NCBI GenBank assembly: GCA_012522445.1
Contig: JAAYKL010000046.1
Location: 1 to 64,000 of the forward strand
Direction of reading: 5' to 3'
Length of the DNA stretch: 64,000 nucleotides
From: Myxococcales bacterium
Lineage (GTDB): Bacteria > Myxococcota_A > Polyangia > JAAYKL01
The notes below the pieces were generated by a model that saw only the letters and a list, made by a program, of their open reading frames with translations, searched no databases and was not told the origin of the DNA. Position 1 is the stretch's first letter; every line of letters begins with the position of its first letter. Positions 11,288 to 26,875 of this stretch are shown here, one piece after another. The position numbers and the translations under genes are program-made.

Positions 11288-13732
11288 TCAGGGGACGATG
11301 CAGAGCCAGTTCTCATCGGGATGCGGCACAGTGCCAGAGGCACACATGTTCCCGCGACAGTAGTTGGCCCCGGGACCAGCGCAGTCGTAGTCGAGCGCGC
11401 CGCACCCGCAGTCGCAGTCACCGTCGCCATACCAATAATCGGAACAGGTCCACTCAGCGGGCACGGGAGGAAGGGGTACACAGAGCCAGTTCTCGTCGGG
11501 ATGCGGTACCAGCCCTTGGTTGGTGCAGGCGTCACTCCATTCACAATCCGTGGCATAGGGGCCGGCGCAGCCGTAATCCAGCGCGCCGCAGCCGCAATCG
11601 CAGAAGCCATCACCGTACCAATCGGGATCGCAGGTCCACTCAGCGGGCACGGGAGGAAGGGGTACACAGAGCCAGTTCTCGTTGGGGTCTACCGTTAGCC
11701 CTTGGTTGGTGCAGACGTCAACGTAGCGGCAATAACTGCTCTCGGGGCCGGCGCAGTCAACGTCGAGGGCGCCGCAGCCGCAGTCGCACTCGCCGTCGCC
11801 GTACCAAGAGTCGTTGCAGGTCCAACCTGCGTTCTTGCAGACATTGTCGACGCAAGCCATCTCACTACCGACGCAGTGGTCGTCCTCTAGGCACGCGACG
11901 CACCTGCCCCCCACGCTGAGATCGCAGAACGCGCCCCTGGCATGGCCCACACAATCGTCGTCGACGCTGCAATCTGGGGACGCCATGTAGCAGCGCCAGT
12001 TCTCACCGTCGACCGGTGCGGTGCCGCTGGGACAATCGTCTTGGTCGCACTGGCTGGCTTCGGGCCCAGCGCAGTCGTAGTCGAGCGCGCCACAGCCGCA
12101 GTCGCATTGGCCGTCGCCGTACCGATTGGCAGGGCAGGTCCAATCAGTCGGCACGGATAGATACTCACAGCGCCAATTTTCGTCGGCGTCGGGGAGCTTG
12201 CCCAATGTGCAAAATATGTTGTCACATTGGAAGTTCTCGGGCCCAGCGCAGTCGTAGTCGAGCGCGCCGCAGCCGCAGTCGCATTGGCCGTCGCCGTACC
12301 GATTGGCAGGGCATGTCCAGGCATCAGATAGGCAAAATTTGGTTTTGGGGGCGCAAGATTCACCGTCCAAGCAGTCGCCATCCGCCAGACACGCGACGCA
12401 CCGGCCGGTGTCGACATCGCAAAATGCGCCGTTGGCGTGGCCCTCACAGTCGGCATCGACGCTGCAATCTGGGTTCGCCATGGTGCAGCGCCAGTTCTCA
12501 TCGTCGACCGGTGCGGTGCCGCTGGGGCAATCGTTTTGGTAGCAGTGGCTGGCCTCGGGACCCGCGCAGTCGATGTCGCGCACGCCGCAGCCGCAGTCGC
12601 AGTAATCGTCGCCGTACATGTGTGGCGGGCAGGTCCAATTGGGGGGCGTGGCCAGCGGTTCGCAGCGCCAGTTCTCGTCGGCGTTGGGATAGCTGAACAT
12701 GCTGCAACCGTGATATTCGCAAGACCCGACGGTATCGTCTGCGCAATCGATATCGCGCGCGCCACAGCCGCATTCGCAGAGGCCGTTATCGTACCAAAAG
12801 GGGGCGCAGATCCAATCCGCCACCGGCGCGCAAAAGCCGCCGGGGCCACACACCGGCGCGCTGCTGTCGCAATCGTCGTCGTCGAAGCACAGATCAGGGT
12901 TGTTCAGGAAGGCGGCGATCTCAAAGTCGTTGATACACAAGGTGCTGACCATGTCGTCCAACAGCAGGACGACGTTGCGGAACCACGCGTGGAAGGGTGC
13001 GCCATAGGTGACGTCGATCTCCGTGACCTCCATGGTTCCCGATACCAGCAAGTAATTCATTATCTGCATCCCGGATTGCACATGGAGCATGAAGTAGTGT
13101 TCGGTGGTGGTCGCCAAATCGACCATGCCCGGCGCGATGACGTTCGGAAGGAACCCGATGCTCAGGTCAGCCATCGCGTCACCAATCTCGAACCCCCCAT
13201 GATAGATGAGCGGATCATTGCGACCTCCCATGGACTGGTAGTTCTGACCAATCAGGACCGGCGTCCCTTGGGCATCGCACCTGGCCTCGCAGGTGTTGTC
13301 GTTGCAAACATCAGGTCCGGGGCAGTCTTCGTCTTCTGCGCACATGACGCATTCGCCGGTGGCGACGATGCAAAGGCCCAAGCCGGGCTCGGTGCAGTCG
13401 GCGTCGGAGGCGCAGCCTGGGGGCGGGGTCTCGGTGTCGCCCGGGTCATCGGTCTCCGTATCGCCCGGGTCATCGGTCTCCGTGTCGCCCGGGTCATCAC
13501 TCGCGGTGTCGCCCGGGTCATCGGTCTCGGTATCGCCCGGGTCATCACTCGCCGTGTCACCCGTGGGGTCACTCGCTGTGTCGCCCGTGGGATCACTCGC
13601 TGTGTCGCCCGTGGGATCACTTGCTGTGTCGCCCGGGTCGGCATCCGCGCTCCCTTTTGAATCCTTGTCGCAACCCGCGGATAGCAGCAGTGCCGCGAAC
13701 AAGGCGCCCAACAGAGCCATTCTCTTTGCCAT
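11288..13732 (-). CDS. large cysteine-rich repeat lipoprotein
   Basis: An 814-residue predicted lipoprotein. It has a signal peptide ending LLLSAGC (Cys at about 20), then a low-complexity DPTGDTAS / DDPGDTET region (about 25-105), a Cys-rich segment of CxxDxDC type (about 106-155), and a non-repetitive domain (about 156-300). From about residue 307 to the end there are seven copies of a roughly 51-residue repeat. The repeat core is W-x-C, YGDG-x-CDCGCGALD-x-DCAGP, two more Cys, then DENW-x-C. Two CxxDxDC-like inserts interrupt the array. The spacing suggests disulfide-bonded, perhaps metal-binding surface modules. It starts at an ATG with AAGGGAG upstream, and it is probably a single-gene unit. 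No catalytic function is claimed. Confidence 0.8.
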   Translation of the reverse strand: MAKRMALLGALFAALLLSAGCDKDSKGSADADPGDTASDPTGDTASDPTGDTASDPTGDTASDDPGDTETDDPGDTASDDPGDTETDDPGDTETDDPGDTETPPPGCASDADCTEPGLGLCIVATGECVMCAEDEDCPGPDVCNDNTCEARCDAQGTPVLIGQNYQSMGGRNDPLIYHGGFEIGDAMADLSIGFLPNVIAPGMVDLATTTEHYFMLHVQSGMQIMNYLLVSGTMEVTEIDVTYGAPFHAWFRNVVLLLDDMVSTLCINDFEIAAFLNNPDLCFDDDDCDSSAPVCGPGGFCAPVADWICAPFWYDNGLCECGCGARDIDCADDTVGSCEYHGCSMFSYPNADENWRCEPLATPPNWTCPPHMYGDDYCDCGCGVRDIDCAGPEASHCYQNDCPSGTAPVDDENWRCTMANPDCSVDADCEGHANGAFCDVDTGRCVACLADGDCLDGESCAPKTKFCLSDAWTCPANRYGDGQCDCGCGALDYDCAGPENFQCDNIFCTLGKLPDADENWRCEYLSVPTDWTCPANRYGDGQCDCGCGALDYDCAGPEASQCDQDDCPSGTAPVDGENWRCYMASPDCSVDDDCVGHARGAFCDLSVGGRCVACLEDDHCVGSEMACVDNVCKNAGWTCNDSWYGDGECDCGCGALDVDCAGPESSYCRYVDVCTNQGLTVDPNENWLCVPLPPVPAEWTCDPDWYGDGFCDCGCGALDYGCAGPYATDCEWSDACTNQGLVPHPDENWLCVPLPPVPAEWTCSDYWYGDGDCDCGCGALDYDCAGPGANYCRGNMCASGTVPHPDENWLCIVP

Positions 13733-13902
13733 TGCATCTCCCTTTCGGTGGTTTTCGCATCCGTTCCCATGCGAGACAGAAAGCGCCCGATGTCGGCGTT
13801 TTCAATTGTCGGTCATATTCCAAATTGTGCTGTCTTTTCCGCGCGCCCGTCAATCGCTTTACGTTTTATCCGGCGTCTTCGTGCCGCGGGAAAACGGCGG
13901 GA

Positions 13903-13925
13903 CGGTTCGCGAACAGCCCGTACAC
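13903..13925. repeat. partial copy of palindromic intergenic repeat
   Basis: CGGTTCGCGAAC followed by AGCCCGTACAC matches the palindrome centre and right arm at 22 of 23 positions. Confidence 0.7.
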
Positions 13926-13940
13926 AGGAGCGGGGCCGGG

Positions 13941-14009
13941 AAAACGTAGGGCGGTACCTGCGTGTCTGCCCTGGTCTTGCGGGTACCCACCCTGTGGAGA
14001 TGCCCCTAC
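13941..14009 (-). terminator. candidate terminator of the aromatic supraoperon
   Basis: Downstream of pheA the transcript can fold with GTAGGG pairing CCCTAC and an inner GGTACC pairing GGTACC, followed by CGTTTT. The loop is long and the U-run short, so it is a moderate candidate. The arms also resemble a common type of dispersed GTAGGG...CCCTAC repeat element. Confidence 0.45.
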
Positions 14010-14046
14010 ACCGGTAATCGATATGTGACTGAAATGAATGAGGGGC

Positions 14047-15102
14047 TCAGCCGTTGAAGCGGGGATAGCAGCCCAGTAGCAGCATGCTGGGGGTGAAGGC
14101 GCGCACTTTGTCGAGCACCTCGAGCACCTTGGCGTCCTGATCGGAGCCCTCGAAATCCAAGAAGAAATTGTAGGTGCCGCTCTCGGTGCGGTGCGGCATG
14201 GAGGCGATGCGGGTGAGGTTGATGTGCGACTCGGCGAAGATGCGCAGGGACTCGAGCAGCTCGCCGGACTTGTGCGCCGTGGCAAAGACGATGGAGCACT
14301 TGTCGCCCGGCACCTTCGAGGGCTCGCGCGAGAGCAGCAGGAAGCGCGTGGAGTTGGTGGGGTCGTCTTCGATGTGCTCTTTGAGGATTTCGAGGTCGTA
14401 GAGCTGGGCGCAGAGGGGCGAGGCGATGGCCGCAGCACGCGTCTTGGCGGTGTTGAGCATGCGCGCCGCACCCGCCGTGTCGTAATAGGGTCGCGGCTCC
14501 AAGCGGTTGCGCTCCAAGAAGGCCGCGCACTGGGCCAGGGCCTGCGGATGCGAATACACCTCGCGCACCTCGCGATAGTCGGTGCCCTTGGCCACCAGCA
14601 AGCAGTGGTGCACCGGCACAATCGTTTCGCCGATGACCTTGAGCGTTGTGTGGGTGAGCAGGTTGTTCACCTGTGTCACGGCGCCCTCCAGGGAGTTTTC
14701 GACCGGCACCACGCCGAAGTCGAACGCGCCCTCGGACACGCCCTCAAAGACCTCGGAGAACTTCGCGCAGGGGATGTAGGCGCTGCCCGGCATGAACGCC
14801 CGCGAGGCCATCTCGCTGTAGGCACCGTGTTCGCCCTGAAAGGCCACCAGGGGCAATTTGCGCTCTTGGAGATTTTTGCTCTCGTCCATGATGCGCTGAA
14901 AGAGCTGCTCGATAAAGCTCTCGTCCAGCAAGGCGAGGCGCGAGCGCTGGGCGTGTTCGATCACCGCGGCTTCGCGCTCTTCGTCCTTGGTGGCGGTCTT
15001 GAATGGCCGAGTGCGCAAGGACATCTCCATGCGGGCTTCGAGGAGCGAGACCAACTCTCTATCGATTTCATCTATGCGTTTGCGAATGGCTTCGAGTTTC
15101 AT
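14047..15102 (-). CDS. pheA: bifunctional chorismate mutase / prephenate dehydratase
   Basis: A 351-residue P-protein that converts chorismate to prephenate and then phenylpyruvate, the phenylalanine branch. The N-terminal chorismate mutase domain (about 1-85) has the IDEIDRELVSLLEAR helix. The prephenate dehydratase domain (about 90-270) has AFQGEHGAYSE, VPVENSLEGAV and NSTRFLLL. The C-terminal ACT domain (about 275-345) has GELLESLRIFAESHINLTRI. The ESRP motif usually needed for Phe feedback binding here reads ASMP, so allosteric control may be altered. It is the last gene of the aromatic supraoperon and starts 4 bp after aroC, with a GAGG site upstream of the ATG. Confidence 0.95.
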   Translation of the reverse strand: MKLEAIRKRIDEIDRELVSLLEARMEMSLRTRPFKTATKDEEREAAVIEHAQRSRLALLDESFIEQLFQRIMDESKNLQERKLPLVAFQGEHGAYSEMASRAFMPGSAYIPCAKFSEVFEGVSEGAFDFGVVPVENSLEGAVTQVNNLLTHTTLKVIGETIVPVHHCLLVAKGTDYREVREVYSHPQALAQCAAFLERNRLEPRPYYDTAGAARMLNTAKTRAAAIASPLCAQLYDLEILKEHIEDDPTNSTRFLLLSREPSKVPGDKCSIVFATAHKSGELLESLRIFAESHINLTRIASMPHRTESGTYNFFLDFEGSDQDAKVLEVLDKVRAFTPSMLLLGCYPRFNG

Positions 15103-15106
15103 TTCA

Positions 15107-16108
15107 TTACCTCGGTTTTTGGGTTGTGGCGTTGGTCGCCCGCGACATTGCGAGCAGATCGGCCAGACCAATGGCCGTCATGGATTCTAAAATGGGGGGA
15201 AAACGCAGTCCGATGCACGCATCGTGACGACCGCGCACTTCGAGCACGTCGGGCTCGCCGGTCTTCAGGTTCACCGTGTCTTGGACCATGCCGATGCTCG
15301 ACGTGGGGCGTACGGCCACGCGAAAGACGATGGGGTTGCCATTGGTGATGCCGCCGTTGATGCCGCCGCTGTGGTTGGTGCGGGTGGTGCCGTCGATGTG
15401 CACAAAGGGATCGTTGAATTGGCTGCCCCGCATCTTGGCGCACGCGAAGCCCGTGCCGAACTCAATGCCCTTGACGCCGGGCACCGAAAACATCAGGTGG
15501 CTCAACACGGCTTCTACGGAGTCGAAGAAGGGCTCGCCCAAACCCGCGGGGACGCCCTCCACGCGCACCTCCACCAAGGCGCCCACGGGGACCATCTCGC
15601 GCTGCGCCGCCACCGCGGCCGCCACGGCATCTTTTTCGCCGCCGGCCTCCAACACCTGGGCGGTGATCTTCATGTCGCCCAGCAGTTTGCGCGCCACCAC
15701 GCCAGCCGCCACGATGCCCACGGTGATGCGGCCCGAAAAGTGCCCGCCCCCGCGGTAGTCGTTGTAGCCGCCGTGCTTGCGGTAGGCCGCGTAATCGGAG
15801 TGCCCCGGCCGCGGCGTGTTGCGGATGTTGTCGTAGGAGCTCGGGTCCGTGTCCGCGTTGTAAAACTGAATCATGATGGGCGCGCCCGTGGTGGTGCCCT
15901 CAAAGACGCCGTTCATGATGTTGGGAATGTCTTTTTCGGCCCGGGGCGTGGTGCCGGGTTTCCCCGCACGACGCCGCTCGATGTCGGCAGAGAAGTCGGC
16001 CTCGGAGAGCGGGACGCCGCCCGGACAGCCGTCGACGCTGATGCCGACGCCTTTGCCGTGGGACTCGCCAAAAATGGTGACGCGAAATAACCTGCCAAAG
16101 CTGTTCAT
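15107..16108 (-). CDS. aroC: chorismate synthase
   Basis: A 333-residue enzyme that makes chorismate from 5-enolpyruvylshikimate-3-phosphate using reduced FMN, the last common step of the shikimate pathway. Signatures are FGESHGKGVG near the start, RPGHSDYAAYRKHG, YRGGGHFSGR and the C-terminal RHDACIGLR. It is somewhat shorter than the usual 350-390 residues, with no obvious lost motif. The ATG at 16108 overlaps the aroA stop codon (ATGA), so translation is coupled. The intermediate passes from the aroA product straight to this enzyme. Confidence 0.95.
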   Translation of the reverse strand: MNSFGRLFRVTIFGESHGKGVGISVDGCPGGVPLSEADFSADIERRRAGKPGTTPRAEKDIPNIMNGVFEGTTTGAPIMIQFYNADTDPSSYDNIRNTPRPGHSDYAAYRKHGGYNDYRGGGHFSGRITVGIVAAGVVARKLLGDMKITAQVLEAGGEKDAVAAAVAAQREMVPVGALVEVRVEGVPAGLGEPFFDSVEAVLSHLMFSVPGVKGIEFGTGFACAKMRGSQFNDPFVHIDGTTRTNHSGGINGGITNGNPIVFRVAVRPTSSIGMVQDTVNLKTGEPDVLEVRGRHDACIGLRFPPILESMTAIGLADLLAMSRATNATTQKPR

Positions 16109-17358
16109 GAGATGTGTACCCCTAGCGCTGTCAAATCCGAGAAAAAACCCGGATAGGATTTGTGCACGGCGTCGTCGCCGCGAATCGACAATGGCCCGTC
16201 TCCGGGCAGCGCCGCCACGGCACAGGCCATGGCGATGCGGTGATCTCCGTGGGCGTCCACGGTGGCTGCGCGCGGCCGACCACCGGTGATGTGCAGGCTG
16301 TCGTCTTGCACGGACAAGGCGATGCCCATGTGGCCAAATTCGCTCTGCAGTGTTTTGGCGCGGTCGCTCTCCTTGGTGGCGAGCCGGTGCACCCCCGCGA
16401 TGCGCGATGTCCCTGCGGCGTTGGCGGCCAAGGCCACCAGTGGCGGGAAGAGATCGGGGCAGTGGGCCGCGTCGAAATCGAAGGCCTGCAGGGCACCCCG
16501 GCGCACCGTGACACAGTCGCCGTCGATGTGCACGCGGGCACCGCACTGGGCCAGGGCGTCGAGGATGGCGCGATCGGCCTGGGCGGACTGGGCATCGAGG
16601 CCACACACGGAGACCGGTCCGGACAAGGCGCCGGCCACCAGCAAGGACGCCGCACCCGACCAATCGCCGGGCACCTGGTAGCGCAGGGGCGCGTAGGCCG
16701 TGTTGCCCGCAACGACGTAGTTTTCGAGTCGCTCGTCGGCCTCAATTTGGGCGCCGGCACTGCGCAGCAGGTCGAGGGTCATCTGCACGTACGGGCGGCT
16801 CTTGAGCCCGGGCGACTGAATGCGCAGCGGTTGGGCAGCGCGCGTGGCCGCCATGAGCAACCCCGTGAGAAATTGCGAGCTCGTGGTGCCGTCCACCGCG
16901 ACCTCGGTGCCCCGCAGCGGTCCCTGGATGTCGAGTGGTGGGAAGCCGCCTTGGGTGTGGCACGTCGTGCCCAGCGCGCGCAGGGGCGCCACCACCATAT
17001 CGACGGGACGCCGCTGCAAGGTGCCGCGCGCCACCAAGCGGTGGGGGCGATCAAAGAGGGCGGCGATGGCCGAAAACATGCGCAGGCAGAGACCGGATTC
17101 GCCGCAGGGGATCTCGACCTGGGGCGCATTGACACCGCTGTGTACGACGATCTCGTTGGGGTGGCGGGTGATGTCGGCGCCCAGGGCCAAGGCGGCACCC
17201 AAGGCGCTCTCGATGTCGTCGCAGAGGGCGCGGGTGTTGAGTTGGATGCGATTTTCGCCGGGGATGAGCGTCGCCAGCGCGATGGCGCGTTGGGCCATGC
17301 TCTTGGAGGGCGGCGCGTTCAATGTGCCGCTTGCGGTTCCCGGTGTGACGTGTTTCAT
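16105..17358 (-). CDS. aroA: 3-phosphoshikimate 1-carboxyvinyltransferase (EPSP synthase)
   Basis: A 417-residue enzyme that joins PEP to shikimate-3-phosphate. Motifs are APPSKSMAQRA at the N-terminus, CGESGLCLRMF (phosphate and PEP binding), DGTTSSQFLTGLL, RLATKESDR and HGDHRIAMA near the C-terminus. Length matches the family. It sits 50 bp after aroD in the supraoperon and overlaps aroC by four bases. The CGESGLCLRMF loop differs from the common GNAGTA(M/T)RP form, so it is not the textbook class I variant. I make no claim about inhibitor sensitivity. Confidence 0.93.
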   Translation of the reverse strand: MKHVTPGTASGTLNAPPSKSMAQRAIALATLIPGENRIQLNTRALCDDIESALGAALALGADITRHPNEIVVHSGVNAPQVEIPCGESGLCLRMFSAIAALFDRPHRLVARGTLQRRPVDMVVAPLRALGTTCHTQGGFPPLDIQGPLRGTEVAVDGTTSSQFLTGLLMAATRAAQPLRIQSPGLKSRPYVQMTLDLLRSAGAQIEADERLENYVVAGNTAYAPLRYQVPGDWSGAASLLVAGALSGPVSVCGLDAQSAQADRAILDALAQCGARVHIDGDCVTVRRGALQAFDFDAAHCPDLFPPLVALAANAAGTSRIAGVHRLATKESDRAKTLQSEFGHMGIALSVQDDSLHITGGRPRAATVDAHGDHRIAMACAVAALPGDGPLSIRGDDAVHKSYPGFFSDLTALGVHIS

Positions 17359-17408
17359 CGGCGTTCAGTCCCTGGTTTTGGGGCGGCGTACACCGCCGTC
17401 TCGGCATC

Positions 17409-18056
17409 TTACATGCCGGTCATTTCCCTGTATATGCCTTTCAAATGCGCCAGCGCGAGCTGCCCCGGCGCCGTGGCAGAGGCCGCATCCAGCGCGGCGA
17501 ATGTAAACGGCGCACCGAGGAAGGGCGCCGCAACGCGGGTGATGCGTCCGGGCGCTCCCATGCCGATGGCCAACACCGGCCGCGTACTGTCCATCAGCCC
17601 CAACAGCCGCGCGGCGTCGGCGGGGGAGTGGGCCTGGCACGCCACCTTGGCGCAATCGGCCCCGCGGGCAAAACACGCGTCGACAATTTCACGCAGGGTT
17701 CTCTCGTCCGGCGTGGCGTCGTAGTTGTGATACGAGACGATAACGCGGCGGTGCAGGGCCCGCGCCTGCTGCAAGACCGCCGTGCAAAACGCGTCGTCGG
17801 CCTCGACCTCGATGTCGACCCAGTGCGCCCCGGCTTTGAGGGCGTCGATGAGCACCGCGGCGCGCTCGGCCTCGGAGCGGTTGGGCGTGGGACGACAGGT
17901 GGCCAGCGTGGGCAAGTTTGTGCCGAAGAGCCGCGCCAGATCGCCGTCGCGCAACACCATGCCGTCCAGGCGGATCTCGGCCATCTCGAGCTCGGGCTGC
18001 CGCAGGAGGCGACACACCACATCGGCATCTTCATGCAACAGGGAGACGCAGATCAT
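17409..18056 (-). CDS. aroD: type I 3-dehydroquinate dehydratase
   Basis: A 215-residue Schiff-base dehydratase that converts 3-dehydroquinate to 3-dehydroshikimate. Seen are EIRLDGM (substrate-binding Glu/Arg), SYHNYDATP (catalytic His), CAKVACQA (Schiff-base Lys) and PGRITR. It is shorter than the usual 220-250 residues but has all key residues. The start overlaps the end of aroB by 26 bp, which suggests coupling. There is no aroE domain fused, and no separate aroE or aroK in this window. Confidence 0.92.
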   Translation of the reverse strand: MICVSLLHEDADVVCRLLRQPELEMAEIRLDGMVLRDGDLARLFGTNLPTLATCRPTPNRSEAERAAVLIDALKAGAHWVDIEVEADDAFCTAVLQQARALHRRVIVSYHNYDATPDERTLREIVDACFARGADCAKVACQAHSPADAARLLGLMDSTRPVLAIGMGAPGRITRVAAPFLGAPFTFAALDAASATAPGQLALAHLKGIYREMTGM

Positions 18057-19077
18057 CGAGTGTCCTTTCGAGTTCGTCGTAGGCGATGGGCACGGTCACC
18101 GCGTGGCCGATGGCGTCGAGCAACACGTAGTTCACGGTGTCGCTGGCGCGCTTTTTGTCCTTGCGCATGGCGTCCATCAGCGCGCGGCGGGGCACGTCGG
18201 CAGACACCGGAAGCCCGAGGCGCCGCAGTACGTTTTCGATGCGCTGCGCGTCTTCGGGCGCGAGCATTTGGCGCTGCACCGACAGATGTGCCGCCACCAC
18301 CATGCCGATGGATACAGCAAACCCGTGGGGCATCTGCGTGCGCTTTTCAACGGCGTGTCCGTAAGTGTGCCCCAAGTTGAGCAGGCGCCGCTCGCCGGTT
18401 TCAAACTCGTCGCGGTTAACGATATCTACCTTTACTTTGGCCGCCCGGGCCAGCACCTCGGCCAGGTGCCCGTCGCGCTGGGTGGCGACCAATTGCGGAC
18501 CGTGCGCTTCGAGGCGCGCGAACAGCTCCGCGTCGGCGATGAGCCCCGACTTGACCACCTCGGCGAGCCCGTTGACGAACTGCTGCGCGGGCAGGGTGGC
18601 CAACAGCGATGTGTCGTTGATCACAAACGCGGGCTGCCGGATGGTGCCCACCATGTTTTTGTAGCCCTGGATGTTCACGCCGTTTTTGCCGCCGATGGCC
18701 GCGTCGACCTGGGCGAGCACCGTGGTGGCCACAAAGCCGCAGGGCAGTCCGCGCAATAGGGTTGCGGCCACAAAGCCCGCCAAGTCGGTCACCATGCCGC
18801 CGCCAATGCCCACGATGAGCGCGTCGCGATCGATTTCGGCGGCGATGAGGCGCTCGTAAATGCGTTCGACATCGGCGAGGTTTTTGCTCGACTCCCCCGC
18901 CGGCACCACGACCACATCGTCGGCAGCGGGGAAGCGCGCCCCGTGGTGTTGAAACACGTTTTCATCGGTGATGATGAAGAGCCGCCGCGCCCCGCGCAGT
19001 TCGGCGAGGGCATCGATGGACCCGTCGACGTAAATGGTGCTGCGCCCATTGCGGCCGTCGATGTGCAAGGGGCTCAT
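18031..19077 (-). CDS. aroB: 3-dehydroquinate synthase
   Basis: A 348-residue NAD- and metal-dependent enzyme that cyclises DAHP to 3-dehydroquinate. Motifs are PAGESSKN, GIGGGMVTDLAGFVAAT (NAD binding), TTVLAQVDAAIGGKNGVN, GLAEVVKSGLI, and the zinc ligands in NLGHTYGHAVE. The ATG at 19077 overlaps the last base of the aroF stop codon. Longer in-frame starts lack conserved sequence. It is the second shikimate step and directly follows the first-step gene. Confidence 0.95.
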   Translation of the reverse strand: MSPLHIDGRNGRSTIYVDGSIDALAELRGARRLFIITDENVFQHHGARFPAADDVVVVPAGESSKNLADVERIYERLIAAEIDRDALIVGIGGGMVTDLAGFVAATLLRGLPCGFVATTVLAQVDAAIGGKNGVNIQGYKNMVGTIRQPAFVINDTSLLATLPAQQFVNGLAEVVKSGLIADAELFARLEAHGPQLVATQRDGHLAEVLARAAKVKVDIVNRDEFETGERRLLNLGHTYGHAVEKRTQMPHGFAVSIGMVVAAHLSVQRQMLAPEDAQRIENVLRRLGLPVSADVPRRALMDAMRKDKKRASDTVNYVLLDAIGHAVTVPIAYDELERTLDDLRLPVA

Positions 19078-19889
19078 CACGGCAGGGACTCCATGGCGTG
19101 CTGCAGCGCGCGGATGTTCTTCATGTAGCGCACGAAGAGCTCGGGCGGCATGGACTGCTCGCCGTCGCACAGCGCCTCGTCGGGACAGGGATGTACCTCA
19201 ACGGCCAGACCGTCGGTGCCGCTGGCAATGGCCGCCAACGACATGGGCTCGATGAGGCTCAGGCGCCCCGTGGCGTGGGTGGGGTCGACGATGACCGGCA
19301 GGTGCGAGAGCTGACGCGCCGCTACCATGGCGCTGAGGTCCAGCGTGTTGCGCGTGTAGCGCTCGAAGGTGCGGATGCCGCGCTCGCACAGCACGACATT
19401 GGGGTTGCCCTCGCTCAAGATGTACTCGGCGCAGTTGAGCCACTCCTCGATGGTGGAGTACATGCCGCGCTTGAGCAGCACCGGCCGCTCCTGGCGCCCC
19501 ACTTCGAGCAGCAGCGAAAAGTTTTGCATGTTGCGCGCGCCGATTTGCAGCATGTCGACATATTCGGCGACCCACGAGACATCGCGCGTGTCGATGACCT
19601 CGGTCACCGTGGGCAGGCCGGTGATCTCCGAGGCCTTGCGCAAAATCTTGAGGCCTTCCAGGCCGAGTCCCTGAAAGGCATACGGCGATGTGCGGGGCTT
19701 GAAGGCGCCGCCGCGCAACATATCGGCGCCCGCCTCTTTCACGGCGATGGCGGCTTCGATGGTCTGCTTCTCGCTCTCGACGCTGCACGGGCCGGCGATG
19801 ACCACCAGGCGATCGCCAAAGACCGCGGTGCCCGCTTGCACCAGCGTGCGTTTTTTGTTCCCGAGTGTTGCCATTTTCAAGTTTTTCAT
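19077..19889 (-). CDS. aroF: 3-deoxy-7-phosphoheptulonate (DAHP) synthase, type I-beta
   Basis: A 270-residue enzyme that condenses PEP and erythrose-4-phosphate, the entry step to aromatic biosynthesis. It has [41 protein letters not shown] and DPTHATGR, as in the KDO8P-synthase-like beta class. It has no N-terminal ACT-like domain and no fused chorismate mutase, which are the usual feedback modules of this class. The enzyme core may therefore be unregulated by allostery, and control may fall on the operon attenuator (inference). It lies 4 bp downstream of trpA. Confidence 0.93.
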
Positions 19890-19893
19890 TTCG

Positions 19894-20727
19894 TCACTCT
19901 TTCCATACGTTGGGTTCGCGTTTTGTAACGCGTTTCATTTTTTCGACAAAGGGTGAAAGTGCCACCCGCAAATCTCCGCGTTGCAAAAAAACCTGGTGTA
20001 CCATGTCGACGACTCTGGAACCGCTGATGGCGCCCGCAGCACCGGCCTGCACGACCTGGGCGACGTGGGACGGTTCGCCGATGCCAAACCCCACAACGGG
20101 ACGCACGGCACCCGCGGCCTTGAGCCGGGCAATGGTGGCGCGAAAATCGCCCGTCAGGTGCGCGTTGCAACCCGTCACGCCGCTGCGCGACACGACATAC
20201 GTGTAGCCCCGGGAGCGCTGGGCAATGCGGCGCAGCGCTTCGTCCGGGGCGTCGGGGGGCGCGATAAAGACCGGGCACACGCCGCACTGTTCGGCCTGGG
20301 CGGCATACGCGTCCGCTTCGGCGATGGGCAGATCCGCGGTCAGCACGGCGTCGATGCCCGCCGCAAAGACGCGTTGAAAGTACACGTCGAACGGCTGCTG
20401 AAACACCGCGTTGGCATAGGTGAGAATGCCCACGGGCACCGCGCTGTTTTGCCGGCGCAATTGCGCGATGAGCGCAAAGCAGTCACCGGGTGTTACGCCA
20501 GCGGCCAGCGCGCGGTTGACCGCCGCCTGCACCACGGGTCCATCCGCCGTGGGGTCCGAAAAGGGAATGCCCAACTCCAGGGCATCGGCGCCGGCATCTA
20601 TCAACCCCTGGGCCGCCGCCAGAAACAACTCCGGCGTCGGATCGCCCACCACGAGAAAGGGGATGAACGCCCCGCGGTTTTCCGCATCTGTGCGCGCAAA
20701 CATCTCGGCATAGCGATGCCCTATCAT
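19894..20727 (-). CDS. trpA: tryptophan synthase alpha chain
   Basis: A 277-residue TIM-barrel subunit that releases indole from indole-3-glycerol phosphate and channels it to TrpB. The catalytic Glu is in [11 protein letters not shown] and the second acid is in [16 protein letters not shown] and GFGIGEP form the phosphate site. The start overlaps the trpB stop codon (ATGA). It is the last trp gene before the aro genes of the supraoperon. Confidence 0.96.
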
Positions 20728-21911
20728 GGACCCACCTCTCTTTCTTTCAGCGCCTGGGACACGGTGTCCAGGTCCTTGTCTCCGCGGCCCGACAAATTCA
20801 CGACCAACACGGTTTCCCGCGTCGCCGCTTGGGCCATCTGCATCGCAAAGGCCAGCGCGTGCGCCGATTCCAACGCCGGGATGATGCCCTCCTGACGCGA
20901 CAGGGCCACAAAGGCGTCCAGGGCCATGTCATCTGTGACGCCGACGTAACGCGCCCGGCCGCTCTGCATCAAGTGCACGTGCTCGGGACCGACGCCCGGA
21001 TAATCCAATCCCGCCGAGATGGACCACGACTCCTGCACTTGCCCATGGGCGTCCTGCAGCACATAGGTGTGGGCGCCGTGCAGCACACCGGGACGTCCCT
21101 TTTGCAGCGTGGCGCCGTGGTGTTCGGTATCCAGACCGCGACCGGCGGGTTCGACGCCGATCAACGCCACATCCGCATCCGGTACAAACGCGTGAAAGGC
21201 GCCGATGGCATTGGAACCGCCGCCCACACAGGCGATCACCGCGTCGGGCAAGCGCCCTTCGGCAGACAGCATTTGTCTTTTGATCTCCGCGCCGATCACC
21301 TTTTGAAAGTCGCGCACCATCGTGGGAAAGGGATGGGCGCCCGCCGCCGTACCCAATAGGTAATGGGTGTCGGCATAATGCTGCGACCAATCGCGCAGGG
21401 CTTCGTTGATGGCGTCTTTCAGCGTGCGCGATCCGGCGTCGACGCGCACCACTTCGGCGCCGAGCATCTGCATGCGGAACACATTGGCCGCCTGCCGCTC
21501 CGCATCCTTGGCCCCCATGTAAATGCGCGTGGTCATCCCCAACAGGGCGCCGACCAAAGCCGTGGCCACGCCGTGCTGTCCCGCTCCGGTCTCGGCGATC
21601 AGGCGGCGCTTGCCCATGCGCTTGGCCAACAAGCCCTGGCCGAGCACCTGGTTGGTTTTGTGGGCGCCCCCGTGCAGCAAATCTTCGCGCTTGAGATAGA
21701 GGCGCACCCGGGTGTCGGCGCAGAGGTTGCGGCAGCGGTACAAGGGCGTGGGACGTCCCGCATAGTCCCGCAGCAACAGCGCGAGCTCCGCCTGGAAGGA
21801 CGCATCGTTTTGCGCGTCCAAAAACGCCGCTTCGAGCTCCTCCAGCACGTGGTACAAAATCTCGGGCACATAGGCGCCGCCAAACACACCAAATCGGCCG
21901 TTCTCTCTCAT
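20724..21911 (-). CDS. trpB: tryptophan synthase beta chain
   Basis: A 395-residue PLP enzyme that condenses indole and serine. The PLP Lys is in [20 protein letters not shown] and the Gly-rich phosphate loop GGGSNAIG are present. Length and the [12 protein letters not shown] opening fit TrpB1, the TrpA-dependent type. The ATG at 21911 overlaps the trpCF stop codon by four bases, and the stop codon in turn overlaps trpA. Confidence 0.97.
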
Positions 21912-23305
21912 CCCGGTATCTCCTCGTTGTTTTCGGGGCCTGGGGTTTTGGGCGACAACGCCCTGCCGGTGCCGCGCAGCGCCTGCATGAAGCGCGACAA
22001 TGCACCGACATCTTTCACGCCCGGCGCCGATTCCACCCCCGAGTTGACGTCCAGGCCAAACGCGCCGCATCCCGCCGCCGCATCCGCATTTTCCGGCGTC
22101 AGCCCACCGGCCAAAAGATGTTCGGACAAATCGATGCCGCGCAGCAGCGACCAATCAAAGGCGACGCCACCGCCCGGCTGCACCGCATCGAAGAGCACGC
22201 GATCGGCGCAGGACACCAGCGCGGGGGGCCTTCCATTTACCGGCACCGCCTTCCATATCTCGCCGTCGCCGATGCGCGACCGCAACGGCGCCACAAACGA
22301 CGCGTCTTCGCGCCCGTGCAACTGAACGGCGTGCAGGCCGAGTTCTTCCACGCACGACGCGATGAAGTCTGCTGGCTGATCCACAAACACCCCCACGAGC
22401 GGCAGCGAGACCTCGCGAGCGATTTGTGCGGCTTGGGTGCGCGACACACACCGCGGCGACGCCGGCGCGAAGATCAGCCCTCCCCACGTAACCCCCGCCG
22501 CATGTGCGTACTGCGCGTCTTCGGCGCGGGTCAATCCACACAGCTTCACGCGGCCGTACACCAGGGCGTTCACGGCGGCGCGCAAGTCGCGTTGCGCCAT
22601 CAACGCGCTGCCCACGAGAAATGCATCCACCTGGGGACGGAGACGGCGCACATCCCGGTGGTGGGCGATGCCCGACTCGGACACCAGCACCCGGTCGGCG
22701 GGAATGCGCGAGGCCAATCGCTGCGTGGTGTCGAGGTCGACGCGAAACGAATCGAAGTCGCGGTTGTTTATGCCGATAATGCGCGCCCCAAGCCGTACGG
22801 CGCGATCGATCTCCATCTCGTTGTGCACCTCCACCAGCGCGTCCATTCCCAGCGAACGGGCCGCCGCAAAACAACGCGAGAAGGCAGCGGCGTCCAACAA
22901 GCGCATCATCAGCAACACCGCATCGGCGCCGTATTGCCGCGCTTCATACACCTGGAACACATCTACGACGAAGTCTTTGCAGAGCACGGGCACGGACACC
23001 GCCGAGCGCACCCGCGACAGAAACGACAAATGCCCCTGAAAGAAGGTCTCGTCGGTCAGCACCGAGATGGCGTCCGCGGTCTCGCTGTAAACGCGGGCAA
23101 TGGCGGCGGGATCGAAATCCGCCCGGATCAAGCCGCGGGACGGCGATGCCTTCTTGCACTCCAAAATGAAACCGGTGTGCGGCTGCCGCAAGACGTCCTC
23201 CAGGCTTCGTTCAGAGGGCGCGAGATGCGTCGGAGGCCGCCAATTCCGGGGTTTGCGCGCCGCTACCTCCTGGCGTTTGCGCGCCGCGATGTCTTCAAAC
23301 CGCAT
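21908..23305 (-). CDS. trpCF: fused indole-3-glycerol phosphate synthase / phosphoribosylanthranilate isomerase
   Basis: A 465-residue two-domain enzyme. The N-terminal TrpC half (about 1-250) has [25 protein letters not shown] and VSESGI. The C-terminal TrpF half (about 255-450) has [25 protein letters not shown] and [15 protein letters not shown]. It catalyses two successive steps. The fusion order is that of enteric bacteria. The start was taken at the ATG at 23305, which overlaps the end of trpD by 11 bp and begins at the conserved helix. Confidence 0.96.
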
Positions 23306-24305
23306 GGGACAACCTCGCGAAATGCTCCAGGCGCGCTGCACAACCGCCGCCTGTCAACGCGTCCATCGCCAAATCTGTTCCCTCGCGGATGTCGGCCGCC
23401 AATCCGGCCACCATGGCCAACGCACCCGCATTCATGGCCACCACCGCGTTTTGCGCATCGGTGCCCTGCCCTTCAAAAATGCGCCGCAAGACGACGGCAT
23501 TTTCACGGGCGCCTCCCCCGCGGATCTCGGTGAGACAAAAGCGCTTGAGGCCTGCATCCGTTGGCGAAAATGTCAACCGCTGCAACGCGCCGTCCCGGTA
23601 CCAGACCGCCTGCGTCGGGCCGTGAACCGCCACTTCATCGAGGCCGCTGCCGTGCACCACCATGGCACTGCGGCACCCCAAGGCGCCGAGCACCTTCGCA
23701 ACGGGTTCCAGCAACGCCGGATCGTACACCCCCATGATCTGCACGGACGGCCGCGCCGGATTGACGAGTGGTCCCAAGAGGTTCATCACCGTGCGCACCC
23801 CCAACGCCTGGCGCACCGGCCCGGCAAAGCGCAACCCCGGATGATTTTGCGGCGCGTACAAAAAGCAAATGCCCGCCTCGTCCAGACAGCGCCGCGAGGT
23901 GTCGTTCGCGGCGTCGATGCGCACCCCCAAGGCCTCGAGCACATCGGCCGAACCGCACTGCGACGAGACGGAGCGGTTGCCGTGCTTCACCATGCGCACG
24001 CCCATCTCGGCGGCCACCACGGCTGTCGCTGTCGAGACATTGATGGTGTGAGCGCCATCGCCGCCCGTTCCACAGGAGTCTGCCGTGTCGTAATGCGGCC
24101 GTTCAAAAGGCGCGCAGGAGTTTCGCAGCGCGCGCGCGGCACCGATCACCTCGGTGGTGTGTTCGCCCTTGGTGCGCAAACCGATGAGCAGCGCCGCAAT
24201 TTGTGCCGCGTCGAGTTCGCCCTGCACCATGGCGCAGAAGGCCCTCTCCGCTTCGTCGGCAGAGAGATCTTCGCGATTGCTGATTTTGTCGAGAAGCACC
24301 TTCAT
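23295..24305 (-). CDS. trpD: anthranilate phosphoribosyltransferase
   Basis: A 336-residue enzyme that joins anthranilate to PRPP. The PRPP-binding CGTGGDGAHTINVST, the VKHGNRSVSSQCGSADVLEALG motif and the LGPLVNPARP stretch are all present. It is a separate protein here, not fused to TrpG as in enterics. The ATG at 24305 overlaps the trpG stop codon. Confidence 0.96.
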   Translation of the reverse strand: MKVLLDKISNREDLSADEAERAFCAMVQGELDAAQIAALLIGLRTKGEHTTEVIGAARALRNSCAPFERPHYDTADSCGTGGDGAHTINVSTATAVVAAEMGVRMVKHGNRSVSSQCGSADVLEALGVRIDAANDTSRRCLDEAGICFLYAPQNHPGLRFAGPVRQALGVRTVMNLLGPLVNPARPSVQIMGVYDPALLEPVAKVLGALGCRSAMVVHGSGLDEVAVHGPTQAVWYRDGALQRLTFSPTDAGLKRFCLTEIRGGGARENAVVLRRIFEGQGTDAQNAVVAMNAGALAMVAGLAADIREGTDLAMDALTGGGCAARLEHFARLSHAV

Positions 24306-24937
24306 GGCCGCCCCCGTACATCTTCGGCGTCCATGTCTGCCGCCCACGAAATGACGTTTTCGATGATGCGGCCGCCCTGGGGCGTCAGGATGGACTCCGG
24401 GTGAAACTGCACGCCAAACATCGGACGCACGCGGTGTGTCACCGCCATGGGAATGTCGTCGCAGCGGGCTGCGATCTCAAACAGCCGCTCATCTGGATAC
24501 GCCACCAAGGAGTGGTAACGCCCCGCAGTGATCTCGCCGCCCAGACCCTGAAAGAAAGGCGCGGAGGCGTTGACCGCAATGCGCGAAGCTTTGCCATGCG
24601 CGATGACAGGGCTGCGCGTCACGGTGCCACCCATGGCCGCGACGATGACCTGGTGCCCCAGGCACACCCCGAAGACGGGCACTTCCGCTGGCACGCACTG
24701 CACCAACGCGAGGCTACATCCCGCGGTTTGTGGCGTCCCAGGGCCGGAGGAGATCACCAACAGCCGCGGCTTGGGCATGTCGTCCAATATCCGCAAGGCC
24801 TCCGCCGCCGGAATATCGTTGCGGTGAACCGCGGTGTGGCATTCTCGTTTTGCGAATTCATCGACGAGGTTGGCGGCAAAGGAACCGCGGTTGTCGATGA
24901 ACAAAACATTGACTTTGGATTGAGGGCGCGGGCTCAT
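24302..24937 (-). CDS. trpG: anthranilate synthase glutamine amidotransferase subunit
   Basis: A 211-residue class I glutaminase that feeds ammonia to TrpE. The catalytic Cys is in GVCLGHQ, the His/Glu pair is in GVQFHPESI, and the oxyanion-type SSGPGTPQ is present. Length fits stand-alone TrpG. The start overlaps the trpE stop codon by four bases, so the two subunits are made in a coupled way. Confidence 0.95.
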   Translation of the reverse strand: MSPRPQSKVNVLFIDNRGSFAANLVDEFAKRECHTAVHRNDIPAAEALRILDDMPKPRLLVISSGPGTPQTAGCSLALVQCVPAEVPVFGVCLGHQVIVAAMGGTVTRSPVIAHGKASRIAVNASAPFFQGLGGEITAGRYHSLVAYPDERLFEIAARCDDIPMAVTHRVRPMFGVQFHPESILTPQGGRIIENVISWAADMDAEDVRGRP

Positions 24938-26532
24938 ACGGCACCTCCCTCTGCAATGGCGATGGCGCGCAAAACCGCCATGGCCTTGGCGCGCGTTTCA
25001 GCGGTCTCCACGTCGGCATCGGAGTCAAACACCACCCCGGCACCAGCGCGAACATAGGCCTTGTTGTCGCGTACCAGCGCCGCCCGAATGACGATGGCCG
25101 TGTCCAATGCGCCATCGGAGGTGAGGTAGCCCACCGCACCGCCGTAGGGTCCGCGTTTGTCGTATTCGCGTTCGCGCAGCAGCTTGGCGGCTTCGATTTT
25201 GGGCGCGCCCACCAGGGTGCCCATGTTGGACGACGCGAGCAGGGCCTGGAGCGCGTCACGGTCGGGATGCAGCTCGCCTTCCACCACCGAGACCAAGTGC
25301 ATGACATGGGCATACCGCTCCACCTCCAAGAGCGACGTGACGACACGCGTTCCCACGCGGCTAATGCGCGCGATGTCATCGCGGGCCAGGTCCACCAGCA
25401 TCATGTGTTCGGCCACCTCTTTCGCATTTAGCTTGAGCTCTGCTTCGAGGCGGCTGTCGAGGTCGCTATCCACCTCGCCCTGAGCGTTCACCCCGCGCGG
25501 GCGCGTGCCGGCAATGGGATGGATGGAAACCCGCAAGGGCCGACCGCGCACCTTGACGCTGGTCTCCGGCGAAGCGCCGAACAAGGCGAACTGCGGCGTT
25601 TGCACATAAAAGAGATACGGACTCGGATTGCACTGGCGCAAGGCGCCGTAGGCGCGAAACGCATCGCGGCACGGCATGCAAAACGTGCGCGACGGCACCA
25701 CTTGAAAGATATCTCCACGCGCGATGTGCGCCACCATGTCATCCACGCATTTGGCATACGCCGCGTCGTTCAGGTCCACGCCAATCGACGCCTCCCAATC
25801 GCGCGGCAGCGCCTTGTCCACGGCCTGCAGCGGCGCGGACGAGACACCGGCGATCACATCCACCAGACCGTCGGCGCGTCGACCGTCCTCGGCGTAGCGC
25901 TTGTCGTAACTGGTGGCGTGATAACCGTGGATCAACACGTGCGCGGTGTGGGTCTCGTGTGCGACCACCACCACGATCTCCGGCAGATAAAACACGAAAT
26001 CGGGAAAGCCGTGGTTGTCCCGCTGGGCGTGGGGCAACGCCTCCAGGTAATCGATGTGGTCGTAGGCCAAAACCCCCGGCAGGTGCAGACGCTTTCGCAC
26101 ATCGTCACTGCCCAGGTTCCATCCGTAGGCAAACAGGCGGATCACATCGGCGGGTGCGGGTGACGACACGAGGCCCGCCACAGAAGACGACGTCTTCACA
26201 TCGGTGGTGTCGCGGAAGTGAACGGTGACGTCGCCGCCCTCTTCGACCAGATCGCCGAGCTGCTGCAACGACGGGCGCAAGGCCGCAATGGCCCCCCGTC
26301 CATTCACCGACAGGGCCTGCACCGCCACGCTTCGGGCACGGCATTCCAGGCGAACGGCGTTCTGAATAAACAGCAAACTCTGCGTGTTGTTGCGACCGTT
26401 GCCATCCATGGATTCAAACAGCAGCGTATCGTTGCGCGTCCCCGAAAGCGCTCGAAACAACGCGTGGGAATCCGCGCAGCACGAACCGCTGCGCAAGACG
26501 GTGTAAGCGTTCATTTTGTTTTTCTGCTGCAT
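24934..26532 (-). CDS. trpE: anthranilate synthase component I
   Basis: A 532-residue chorismate-binding enzyme that starts the tryptophan branch. Similarity to the enteric TrpE runs full length. The N-terminal tryptophan-binding motif (LLES in E. coli) reads LLFESMD with the key Ser kept. The catalytic domain has IFQVVPSRTF, NPSPYLFY, GASPETSVK, PIAGTRPRG, LVDLARDD, MGTLVGAPK, YGGAVGYL and RAGAGVV. The ATG at 26532 was chosen because AAAGGG lies eight bases upstream. An ATG at 26514 is an alternative. It is the first enzyme gene of the supraoperon, 20 bp after the attenuator U-run. Confidence 0.96.
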   Translation of the reverse strand: MQQKNKMNAYTVLRSGSCCADSHALFRALSGTRNDTLLFESMDGNGRNNTQSLLFIQNAVRLECRARSVAVQALSVNGRGAIAALRPSLQQLGDLVEEGGDVTVHFRDTTDVKTSSSVAGLVSSPAPADVIRLFAYGWNLGSDDVRKRLHLPGVLAYDHIDYLEALPHAQRDNHGFPDFVFYLPEIVVVVAHETHTAHVLIHGYHATSYDKRYAEDGRRADGLVDVIAGVSSAPLQAVDKALPRDWEASIGVDLNDAAYAKCVDDMVAHIARGDIFQVVPSRTFCMPCRDAFRAYGALRQCNPSPYLFYVQTPQFALFGASPETSVKVRGRPLRVSIHPIAGTRPRGVNAQGEVDSDLDSRLEAELKLNAKEVAEHMMLVDLARDDIARISRVGTRVVTSLLEVERYAHVMHLVSVVEGELHPDRDALQALLASSNMGTLVGAPKIEAAKLLREREYDKRGPYGGAVGYLTSDGALDTAIVIRAALVRDNKAYVRAGAGVVFDSDADVETAETRAKAMAVLRAIAIAEGGAV

Positions 26533-26551
26533 TAACGCGTCCCTTTTTGGC

Positions 26552-26580
26552 AAAAAAAAAGGCCCACCGTTTGGTGAGCC
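26552..26580 (-). terminator. trp/aro attenuator terminator hairpin
   Basis: In transcript direction, GGCTCACC (26580-26573), loop AAAC, GGTGGGCC (26568-26561), then nine U (26560-26552). The eight-pair stem has one G-U pair. It lies between the leader peptide and trpE, so it is a regulated, intrinsic terminator (segments 3 and 4). Confidence 0.92.
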
Positions 26581-26670
26581 TTTGGTTGTTTTGGTTGTAA
26601 ATTAAGTCAGCGCAAACTATGGCCCACCGCGGTTGTTACGTCGCGCCAAAAGCCAAAATAATAGTTTGCG
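26573..26670 (-). promoter_or_regulatory. trp/aro attenuator: segments 1-3 (alternative RNA pairing)
   Basis: Segment 1 CGCAAACTAT (26670-26661) is perfectly complementary to the 3' part of segment 2, ATAGTTTGCG (26620-26611). The 5' part of segment 2, GGTGGGCC (26628-26621), is identical to segment 4 and can pair instead with segment 3, GGCTCACC (26580-26573), to form an antiterminator. Segment 1 lies under the aromatic codons, and the leader stop codon directly follows segment 2. A ribosome stalled on the aromatic codons masks segment 1 and frees 2:3. A ribosome at the stop codon masks segment 2 and lets 3:4 terminate. Confidence 0.88.
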
Positions 26671-26684
26671 TGCAAAGCGTTCAT
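26607..26684 (-). CDS. aromatic leader peptide of the trp/aro supraoperon
   Basis: A 25-codon open frame ending in TGA at 26609-26607. Residues 8-13 are Tyr-Tyr-Phe-Gly-Phe-Trp, so five of six residues are aromatic and all three aromatic amino acids are present, with a single Trp codon. The codons overlap RNA segment 1, and the stop codon follows segment 2, which is the geometry of a translated attenuator. Its ATG lies seven bases downstream of a candidate -10 element (TATAGA), so the transcript may begin at the start codon. The peptide itself probably has no separate activity (inference). Confidence 0.9.
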   Translation of the reverse strand: MNALHANYYFGFWRDVTTAVGHSLR

Positions 26685-26691
26685 GCCTCCC

Positions 26692-26719
26692 TCTATAATC
26701 ATTTGAAAATTTCGGTCAA
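26692..26719 (-). promoter_or_regulatory. candidate promoter of the trp/aro supraoperon
   Basis: TTGACC (26719-26714), a 16-bp spacer, then TATAGA (26697-26692). The expected start point falls on or next to the leader ATG at 26684, so the leader would be leaderless. The GGGAGG between -10 and ATG is too close to serve as a normal ribosome binding site. Confidence 0.65.
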
Positions 26720-26875
26720 GCATTCTCCGCGAAAGACTTCGTTTTTTTACGCGGACGCATTCACCCGGTCCGCCGCTGCAAAATACAACGGCGACCCGAC
26801 GCCAACAGGGCTTATAATGAAAGACATAAAGACATTCGGTGCGACGCCCCGCACCTGCGCCAAGGAGGTCCTGTG

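Follow-up and report, generated by a model that had tools for sequence, protein, structure and literature searches.

A candidate mixed-control attenuator with Tyr, Phe and Trp codons upstream of a fused trp-aro-pheA operon in a Myxococcales bacterium

The window analysed here is a stretch of 64,000 nt from a Myxococcales metagenome assembly (G000; 3.1 Mb, 88% complete), whose minus strand carries an unbroken operon of twelve genes, trpE-G-D-C/F-B-A-aroF-B-D-A-C-pheA. The tryptophan genes come first: trpE (24934-26532, starting at 26532, or at 26514 by homology; NCBIfam NF010079, 549 bits), trpG (24302-24937; TIGR00566, over its cut-off), trpD (23295-24314), a trpC-trpF fusion (21908-23305; NF006945, 547.8 bits), trpB (20724-22019, start approximate) and trpA (19894-20727). 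They are followed by aroF for a type I DAHP synthase, which begins 4 nt after trpA (19077-19889; TIGR01361), aroB (18031-19083; TIGR01357), a type I aroD (17409-18056; TIGR01093, under its cut-off), aroA (16105-17358; TIGR01356), aroC (15107-16186, start approximate) and, as the last gene, pheA for a chorismate mutase-prephenate dehydratase (14047-15102; NF008865, over its cut-off). The genes trpB, trpA and aroC were recognized from their open reading frames and from relatives; the trpD frame has trpD orthologues in the same position in relatives, and we take it to be trpD from this position and from what is known of the family. Neighboring genes mostly overlap or sit a few bases apart, the widest gap (~ 50 nt) lying between aroD and aroA, and a scan for terminator sites across 13500-26800 revealed no strong terminator between trpE and pheA. 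We infer that the twelve genes, trpE to pheA, are co-transcribed. Downstream of pheA, the minus strand at 11288-13732 encodes a secreted-looking protein of 814 aa, in which repeated Cys-rich modules (CDCGCGALDYDCAGP) come after a Thr/Asp-rich repeat stretch.

The operon thus holds genes of the common pathway, the Trp branch and PheA, and it is without aroE, aroK and tyrA. Its aroF is the sole DAHP synthase detected in G000 by PF00793 and PF01474 searches, a second PF00793 match reading as KDO-8-P synthase, and its pheA is the sole PheA detected. In this 88% complete genome, neither TyrA (searched with the family model and with a relative's protein) nor a Phe hydroxylase as a source of Tyr was found.

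Upstream of trpE, minus-strand positions 26719-26552 present, in order, the promoter-like TTGACC-16 nt-TATAGA, the leader ATG, MNALHANYYFGFWRDVTTAVGHSLR, segments 3 and 4 and a run of nine T, after which trpE follows. The putative promoter (26692-26719) consists of TTGACC (26719-26714) and TATAGA (26697-26692) and is assigned from its sequence and from a kept distance between the -35 element and the ATG. The leader peptide frame MNALHANYYFGFWRDVTTAVGHSLR (26607-26684) has 25 codons and a TGA, with homologous leaders in five other genomes, and codons 8-13 (26646-26663) read Tyr-Tyr-Phe-Gly-Phe-Trp (YYFGFW). Segment 1 (26650-26670) is made up of CGCAAACTAT (26670-26661) and TGGCTT (26655-26650); segment 2 (26611-26628), made up of GGTGGGCC (26628-26621) and ATAGTTTGCG (26620-26611), can take segment 1 or segment 3 as its partner. 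Segment 3 is GGCTCACC (26573-26580), segment 4, the 3' arm of the terminator, is GGTGGGCC (26561-26568), and the U9 tract of this intrinsic terminator lies at 26552-26560.

The pairing between CGCAAACTAT and ATAGTTTGCG comprises 10 perfect pairs and is extended by UGGCUU/GGGCCA. The copy of GGTGGGCC within segment 2 (26628-26621) is identical to segment 4 (26568-26561), and 8 pairs, one of them G-U, make up the terminator stem (11 with flanking A-U pairs) before the nine T. The leader with YYFGFW at residues 8-13, the ten segment 1/2 pairs, the duplicated segment and the 8-pair terminator with nine U had all been reported in a first-pass annotation of this DNA, and each was found again; the same annotation placed trpE 20 bp further on, which holds for the ATG at 26532, but homology with relatives favours the ATG at 26514, 38 nt from the U-run. 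The computed folding energy of the 156-nt region is -47.6 kcal/mol, compared with -36 ± 3.4 in dinucleotide shuffles (z -3.4), and its terminator is the strongest terminator-like site within 13500-26800.

TATAGA ends 7 nt upstream of the leader ATG, and the distance from the start of the -35 element to the ATG is 35-37 nt in all six family leaders that precede trpE. With this spacing, transcription is expected to begin right at the ATG or next to it, so that the leader mRNA is probably leaderless, as the trpL mRNA of S. meliloti is. A GGGAGG upstream of the leader was considered as a Shine-Dalgarno site and is an unlikely one, since the RNA is expected to start at or beside the ATG.

Homologous leaders with the motif [F/Y]-W-[F/Y]-W-R lie before trpE in five more genomes of the family, namely, G008 (MSFYSTNKFWFWRSANYCGGPPIV), G003 (MTFVAFNTFWYWRSVNSRGGFRMR), G013 (MSFLFNRYWFWRGWMSQGGPVLR), G004 (MNFLINSFWFWRGSVSQGGPVLR) and G011 (MNFLVNNFWFWRGSMSHGGPGLR). 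A covariance model built from these and the G000 leader revealed two additional leaders, in the sister genera G002 (MYGIFLKENWRWWRSDAIRSGPASD) and G006 (MFVMRQKIYWRWWRHGNSRGGPPMM), both of which are Trp-only (WRWWR) and stand before aroF-trpEGDCFBA. In total, the model matches 8 of the 318 genomes of the class (E ≤ 2e-6), all within the family of the window and all just upstream of trpE or aroF-trpE; elsewhere in the class, and in a phylum sample of 379 genomes, only terminator-like matches appeared, and viral contigs gave no match. Among the trpE-bearing loci searched, a full-length significant match was found in the gammaproteobacterium Aliikangiella alone, where it is weaker and belongs to a Trp-only leader, NLRWWRW. 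This leader stands before aroF-trp in Aliikangiella sp. G2MR2-5 (L050:8440-8581), and a second terminator behind HWWWHSH follows ~ 140 nt downstream (L050:8723-8776), possibly forming tandem attenuators. Within the family of the window, five genomes (G001, G005, G007, G010 and G012, four of them over 88% complete) are without a trpE or pheA match, and aromatic amino acid synthesis has possibly been lost in them.

Across the eight aligned leaders, standard pairs account for 94% of the terminator stem, where both partners differ in three pairs, and for 92% of the segment 2:3 pairing, where both differ in two; in G003, segments 2, 3 and 4 are altered together (GGTGGGTT/GACCCACC/GGTGGGTT). The two aromatic sites beside Trp are occupied by TTT, TTC or TAC, that is, by F or Y in 12/12 codons from six genomes, and change only between F and Y or synonymously, while the flanking residues vary. 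The window leader has one Trp control codon, compared with two or three in its close relatives. The first-pass annotation had proposed this covariance search and had made its idea depend on conservation of the aromatic codons and of the alternative pairing; in the family, both [F/Y]-W-[F/Y]-W-R and the 1:2, 2:3 and 3:4 pairings are kept.

The element thus combines mutually exclusive 1:2, 2:3 and 3:4 pairing and a U-run terminator with a short leader frame that contains codons for the product amino acids and is kept in six genomes, as expected of a ribosome-mediated attenuator. A plain terminator or a chance reading frame, with no control coupled to translation, is very improbable given that eight genomes keep the leader, the promoter-to-ATG distance, the triplication of segments 2/3/4 and compensatory changes. 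We are nearly certain that minus-strand 26684-26552 is a real ribosome-mediated attenuator.

A key question is which of the control codons can act in the switch. In our computations, the ribosome hid the RNA to 12 nt beyond the first A-site nucleotide, and 2:3 pairing was evaluated for a transcript that does not yet contain segment 4. For the window RNA, the computed probability of 2:3 pairing was 0.03 without a ribosome, 0.98-1.00 with a ribosome stalled anywhere from Tyr8 to Asp15, and 0 with one stalled at Val16 or later. The permissive window from Tyr8 to Asp15 takes in all five aromatic codons, and a change of ± 3 nt in the footprint shifts its limits by one codon. Thus, by computation, segment 2 is free while the ribosome waits on the control codons and is covered once the ribosome reaches the stop codon. 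In six leaders (G000, G013, G004, G008, G002 and G006), the permissive window opens where the aromatic run begins: at a Trp codon in the sister genera (in G006, the Trp that opens WRWW, one codon past a Tyr) and at a Phe or Tyr codon in the others. The contrast with RNA free of ribosomes is weak in G004 and absent in G003 and G011, whose ribosome-free RNA is computed not to hide segment 2. In a simple race model, run with assumed rates, the window RNA was predicted to respond more to Tyr or Phe, with two codons each, than to Trp, with a single codon; for G002 and G006, the model gave a strong Trp response and zero response to Phe or Tyr. The permissive windows of these two leaders also hold Arg codons, together with some for Gly or His.

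Single-amino-acid attenuators are textbook systems. The window element shares with the trp attenuators (trpL of E. coli, Sinorhizobium and Corynebacterium) the leader peptide, segments 1-4, the U-run terminator, the place before trp genes and a promoter near the AUG, but it has one Trp codon together with two Tyr and two Phe codons, and its operon also includes aroF-B-D-A-C-pheA. The region has fewer than the at least two Trp control codons of RF00513-type (trpL) leaders and scores 18.2 bits against the RF00513 cut-off of 41; its best Rfam match is Phe_leader (RF01859; 28.7 bits, under the cut-off of 55), and at gathering scores Rfam has no match in the whole 64,000-nt window. The E. coli pheA attenuator (pheL) likewise has Phe codons in its leader and pheA in its operon, whereas here there is no Phe run and pheA comes twelfth in the operon. 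In the ilvGMEDA and thr attenuators, too, a single leader has control codons for several of the amino acids that its operon makes, although the codons there are branched-chain or Thr/Ile rather than aromatic. The C. glutamicum aroR-aroF leader (Neshat et al. 2014, cited in PMC11802643) also combines different aromatic amino acids (Phe-Tyr-Phe) and also precedes the gene of a DAHP synthase, but it has neither Trp codons nor trp genes and is reported to respond to Phe and not to Tyr. In open-access papers, we found no description of a leader with Tyr, Phe and Trp control codons before a trp-aro-pheA operon, in line with the first-pass annotation, to which no such tri-aromatic attenuator was known. 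What appears new is the multi-aromatic design of the leader, attenuation itself being classical.

Might this attenuator, nevertheless, answer in practice only or mainly to Trp, its Tyr and Phe codons being due to pairing or descent? The leaders of the sister genera do carry Trp alone, and Phe codons (FWFW or YWFW) are retained before the trp-only operons of the genus g5 (G004, G011 and G013), for which responding to Phe would be metabolically pointless. Pairing could account for part of the run: UGG-UUU is able to pair with GGGCC of segment 2, although G003 has UAC for UUU at this putative site, and a codon scan showed Tyr8 to be tied to the hairpin (4/61 codons tolerated). Gly11 tolerates 15/61 codons, and the pairing of its GGC with segment 2 may lie behind one Trp to Gly swap. 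Codons 9, 10 and 12, however, are free of pairing constraint; at Tyr9, Phe10, Phe12 and Trp13, the hairpin tolerates 49/61, 48/61, 40/61 and 52/61 codons, respectively, so that pairing leaves their aromatic identity unexplained. Moreover, the window leader has dropped one of two Trp codons (FWFW to FGFW) and added two Tyr codons, whereas control by Trp should have favoured keeping the Trp codons. With the sole detected DAHP synthase and PheA behind the attenuator, Phe and Tyr synthesis would be starved if Trp were the one signal: an excess of Trp would switch off the common pathway together with the synthesis of Phe. We consider control by Trp alone, or mainly by Trp, improbable.

A switch that answers to Phe and Trp, or to Phe alone, and ignores Tyr is likewise unlikely. 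It has a precedent in what is reported for the C. glutamicum aroR leader (PMC11802643), and G004, G008 and G011 have no Tyr codon in their permissive windows. The failure to find TyrA in G000 points in the same direction and makes the use of sensing Tyr less clear, in a genome that is 88% complete. In the window leader, however, two adjacent Tyr codons open the permissive window, and Tyr9 is free of pairing constraint. The sister genera G002 (C253, L129:2239-2380) and G006 (C71, L126:2687-2806), in addition, have Tyr-run leaders (MNRPRLYNYHYYYYCAPRAPDR and MKKQYRYFYYFSPNSPDR, respectively) with a terminator before an aroF (DAHP synthase)-tyrA operon, which makes it plausible that Tyr-dependent stalling is used in the family; no published account of such apparent Tyr attenuators before DAHP synthase-tyrA was found in the open-access literature. 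G006 also has a Phe-rich leader (MTIIFFTVRFFYFGRFFFKSVHPGD) and terminator before pheA (C155, L125, reverse strand).

Control codons for all three amino acids before an operon of the shared pathway, the Trp branch and Phe synthesis suggest that the window element probably senses a shortage of any of them. We put at roughly 0.6 the probability that it is a mixed-control attenuator of the fused trp-aro-pheA operon that responds to lack of Tyr, Phe or Trp, and we infer that read-through would respond to each amino acid. Stalling on any of the three had been proposed in the first-pass annotation; the codons, the pairing, the permissive window and the operon content fit that proposal, while the Tyr-insensitivity reported for aroR and the Phe codons kept in g5 speak against it. 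In the proposed switch, transcription would begin at or beside the leader AUG, and RNA polymerase would make segments 1 and 2, which pair. With Tyr-, Phe- and Trp-tRNA all charged, the ribosome would reach the stop codon and cover segment 2, the 3:4 terminator would form, and transcription would end. With any of the three in short supply, the ribosome would stall at codons 8-13 and cover segment 1, and segment 2 would pair with segment 3, allowing all twelve genes to be transcribed. Having two codons each for Tyr and Phe and one for Trp, the switch should be less sensitive to Trp than to either of the others. According to Elf and Ehrenberg (PMC1183508), a control region of mixed codons has a lower sensitivity to each amino acid than a pure one.

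How did such a leader arise? The operon of G000 joins trp to aroF-B-D-A-C-pheA, that of G008 joins trp to aroB-aroD-pheA and that of G003 joins trp to aroB, while in g5 the operon is trp only and aroF-B-D-A-(C)-pheA stands separately with its gene order kept; no leader was seen in the 400 nt before this separate operon. A tree of concatenated trp proteins gave (G000,(G003,(G008,g5))) with G002 and G006 as sisters and in-family supports of 91-100, so that the outgroup has WRWWR and the first branches of the clade with F/Y codons have aro/pheA genes behind trpA. The simplest account of these sequences is that trp and aro/pheA were joined once in the ancestor of the six and split later in g5. On the tree, the Trp-only leader turned into [F/Y]W[F/Y]WR on the same branch as the operon joining; WRWWR in the sister genera and [F/Y]W[F/Y]WR in the family suggest that the Phe/Tyr codons entered the leader in the clade in which aro and pheA were joined behind trp. 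This rewriting is one evolutionary event and is suggestive rather than a statistic. The reverse order, with FWFW first and three separate fusions later, is conceivable, and the Phe codons kept before the trp-only operon of g5 argue against codon content strictly tracking operon content.

From these comparisons, the sister genera appear to use separate leaders for Trp, Phe and Tyr, whereas the window organism appears to unite their control in one. We tentatively suggest, at somewhat less than even odds, that when trp and aroF-aroB-aroD-aroA-aroC-pheA were joined, the Trp-only WRWWR leader was re-coded to Tyr/Phe/Trp on the same RNA frame, replacing the separate Trp, Phe and Tyr attenuators of the sister genera. 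The family thus offers a before-and-after series, WRWWR to FWFWR to YYFGFWR, in which the leader is re-coded and the hairpins are kept, and if all three amino acids act, a single RNA would integrate the end products of a branched pathway.
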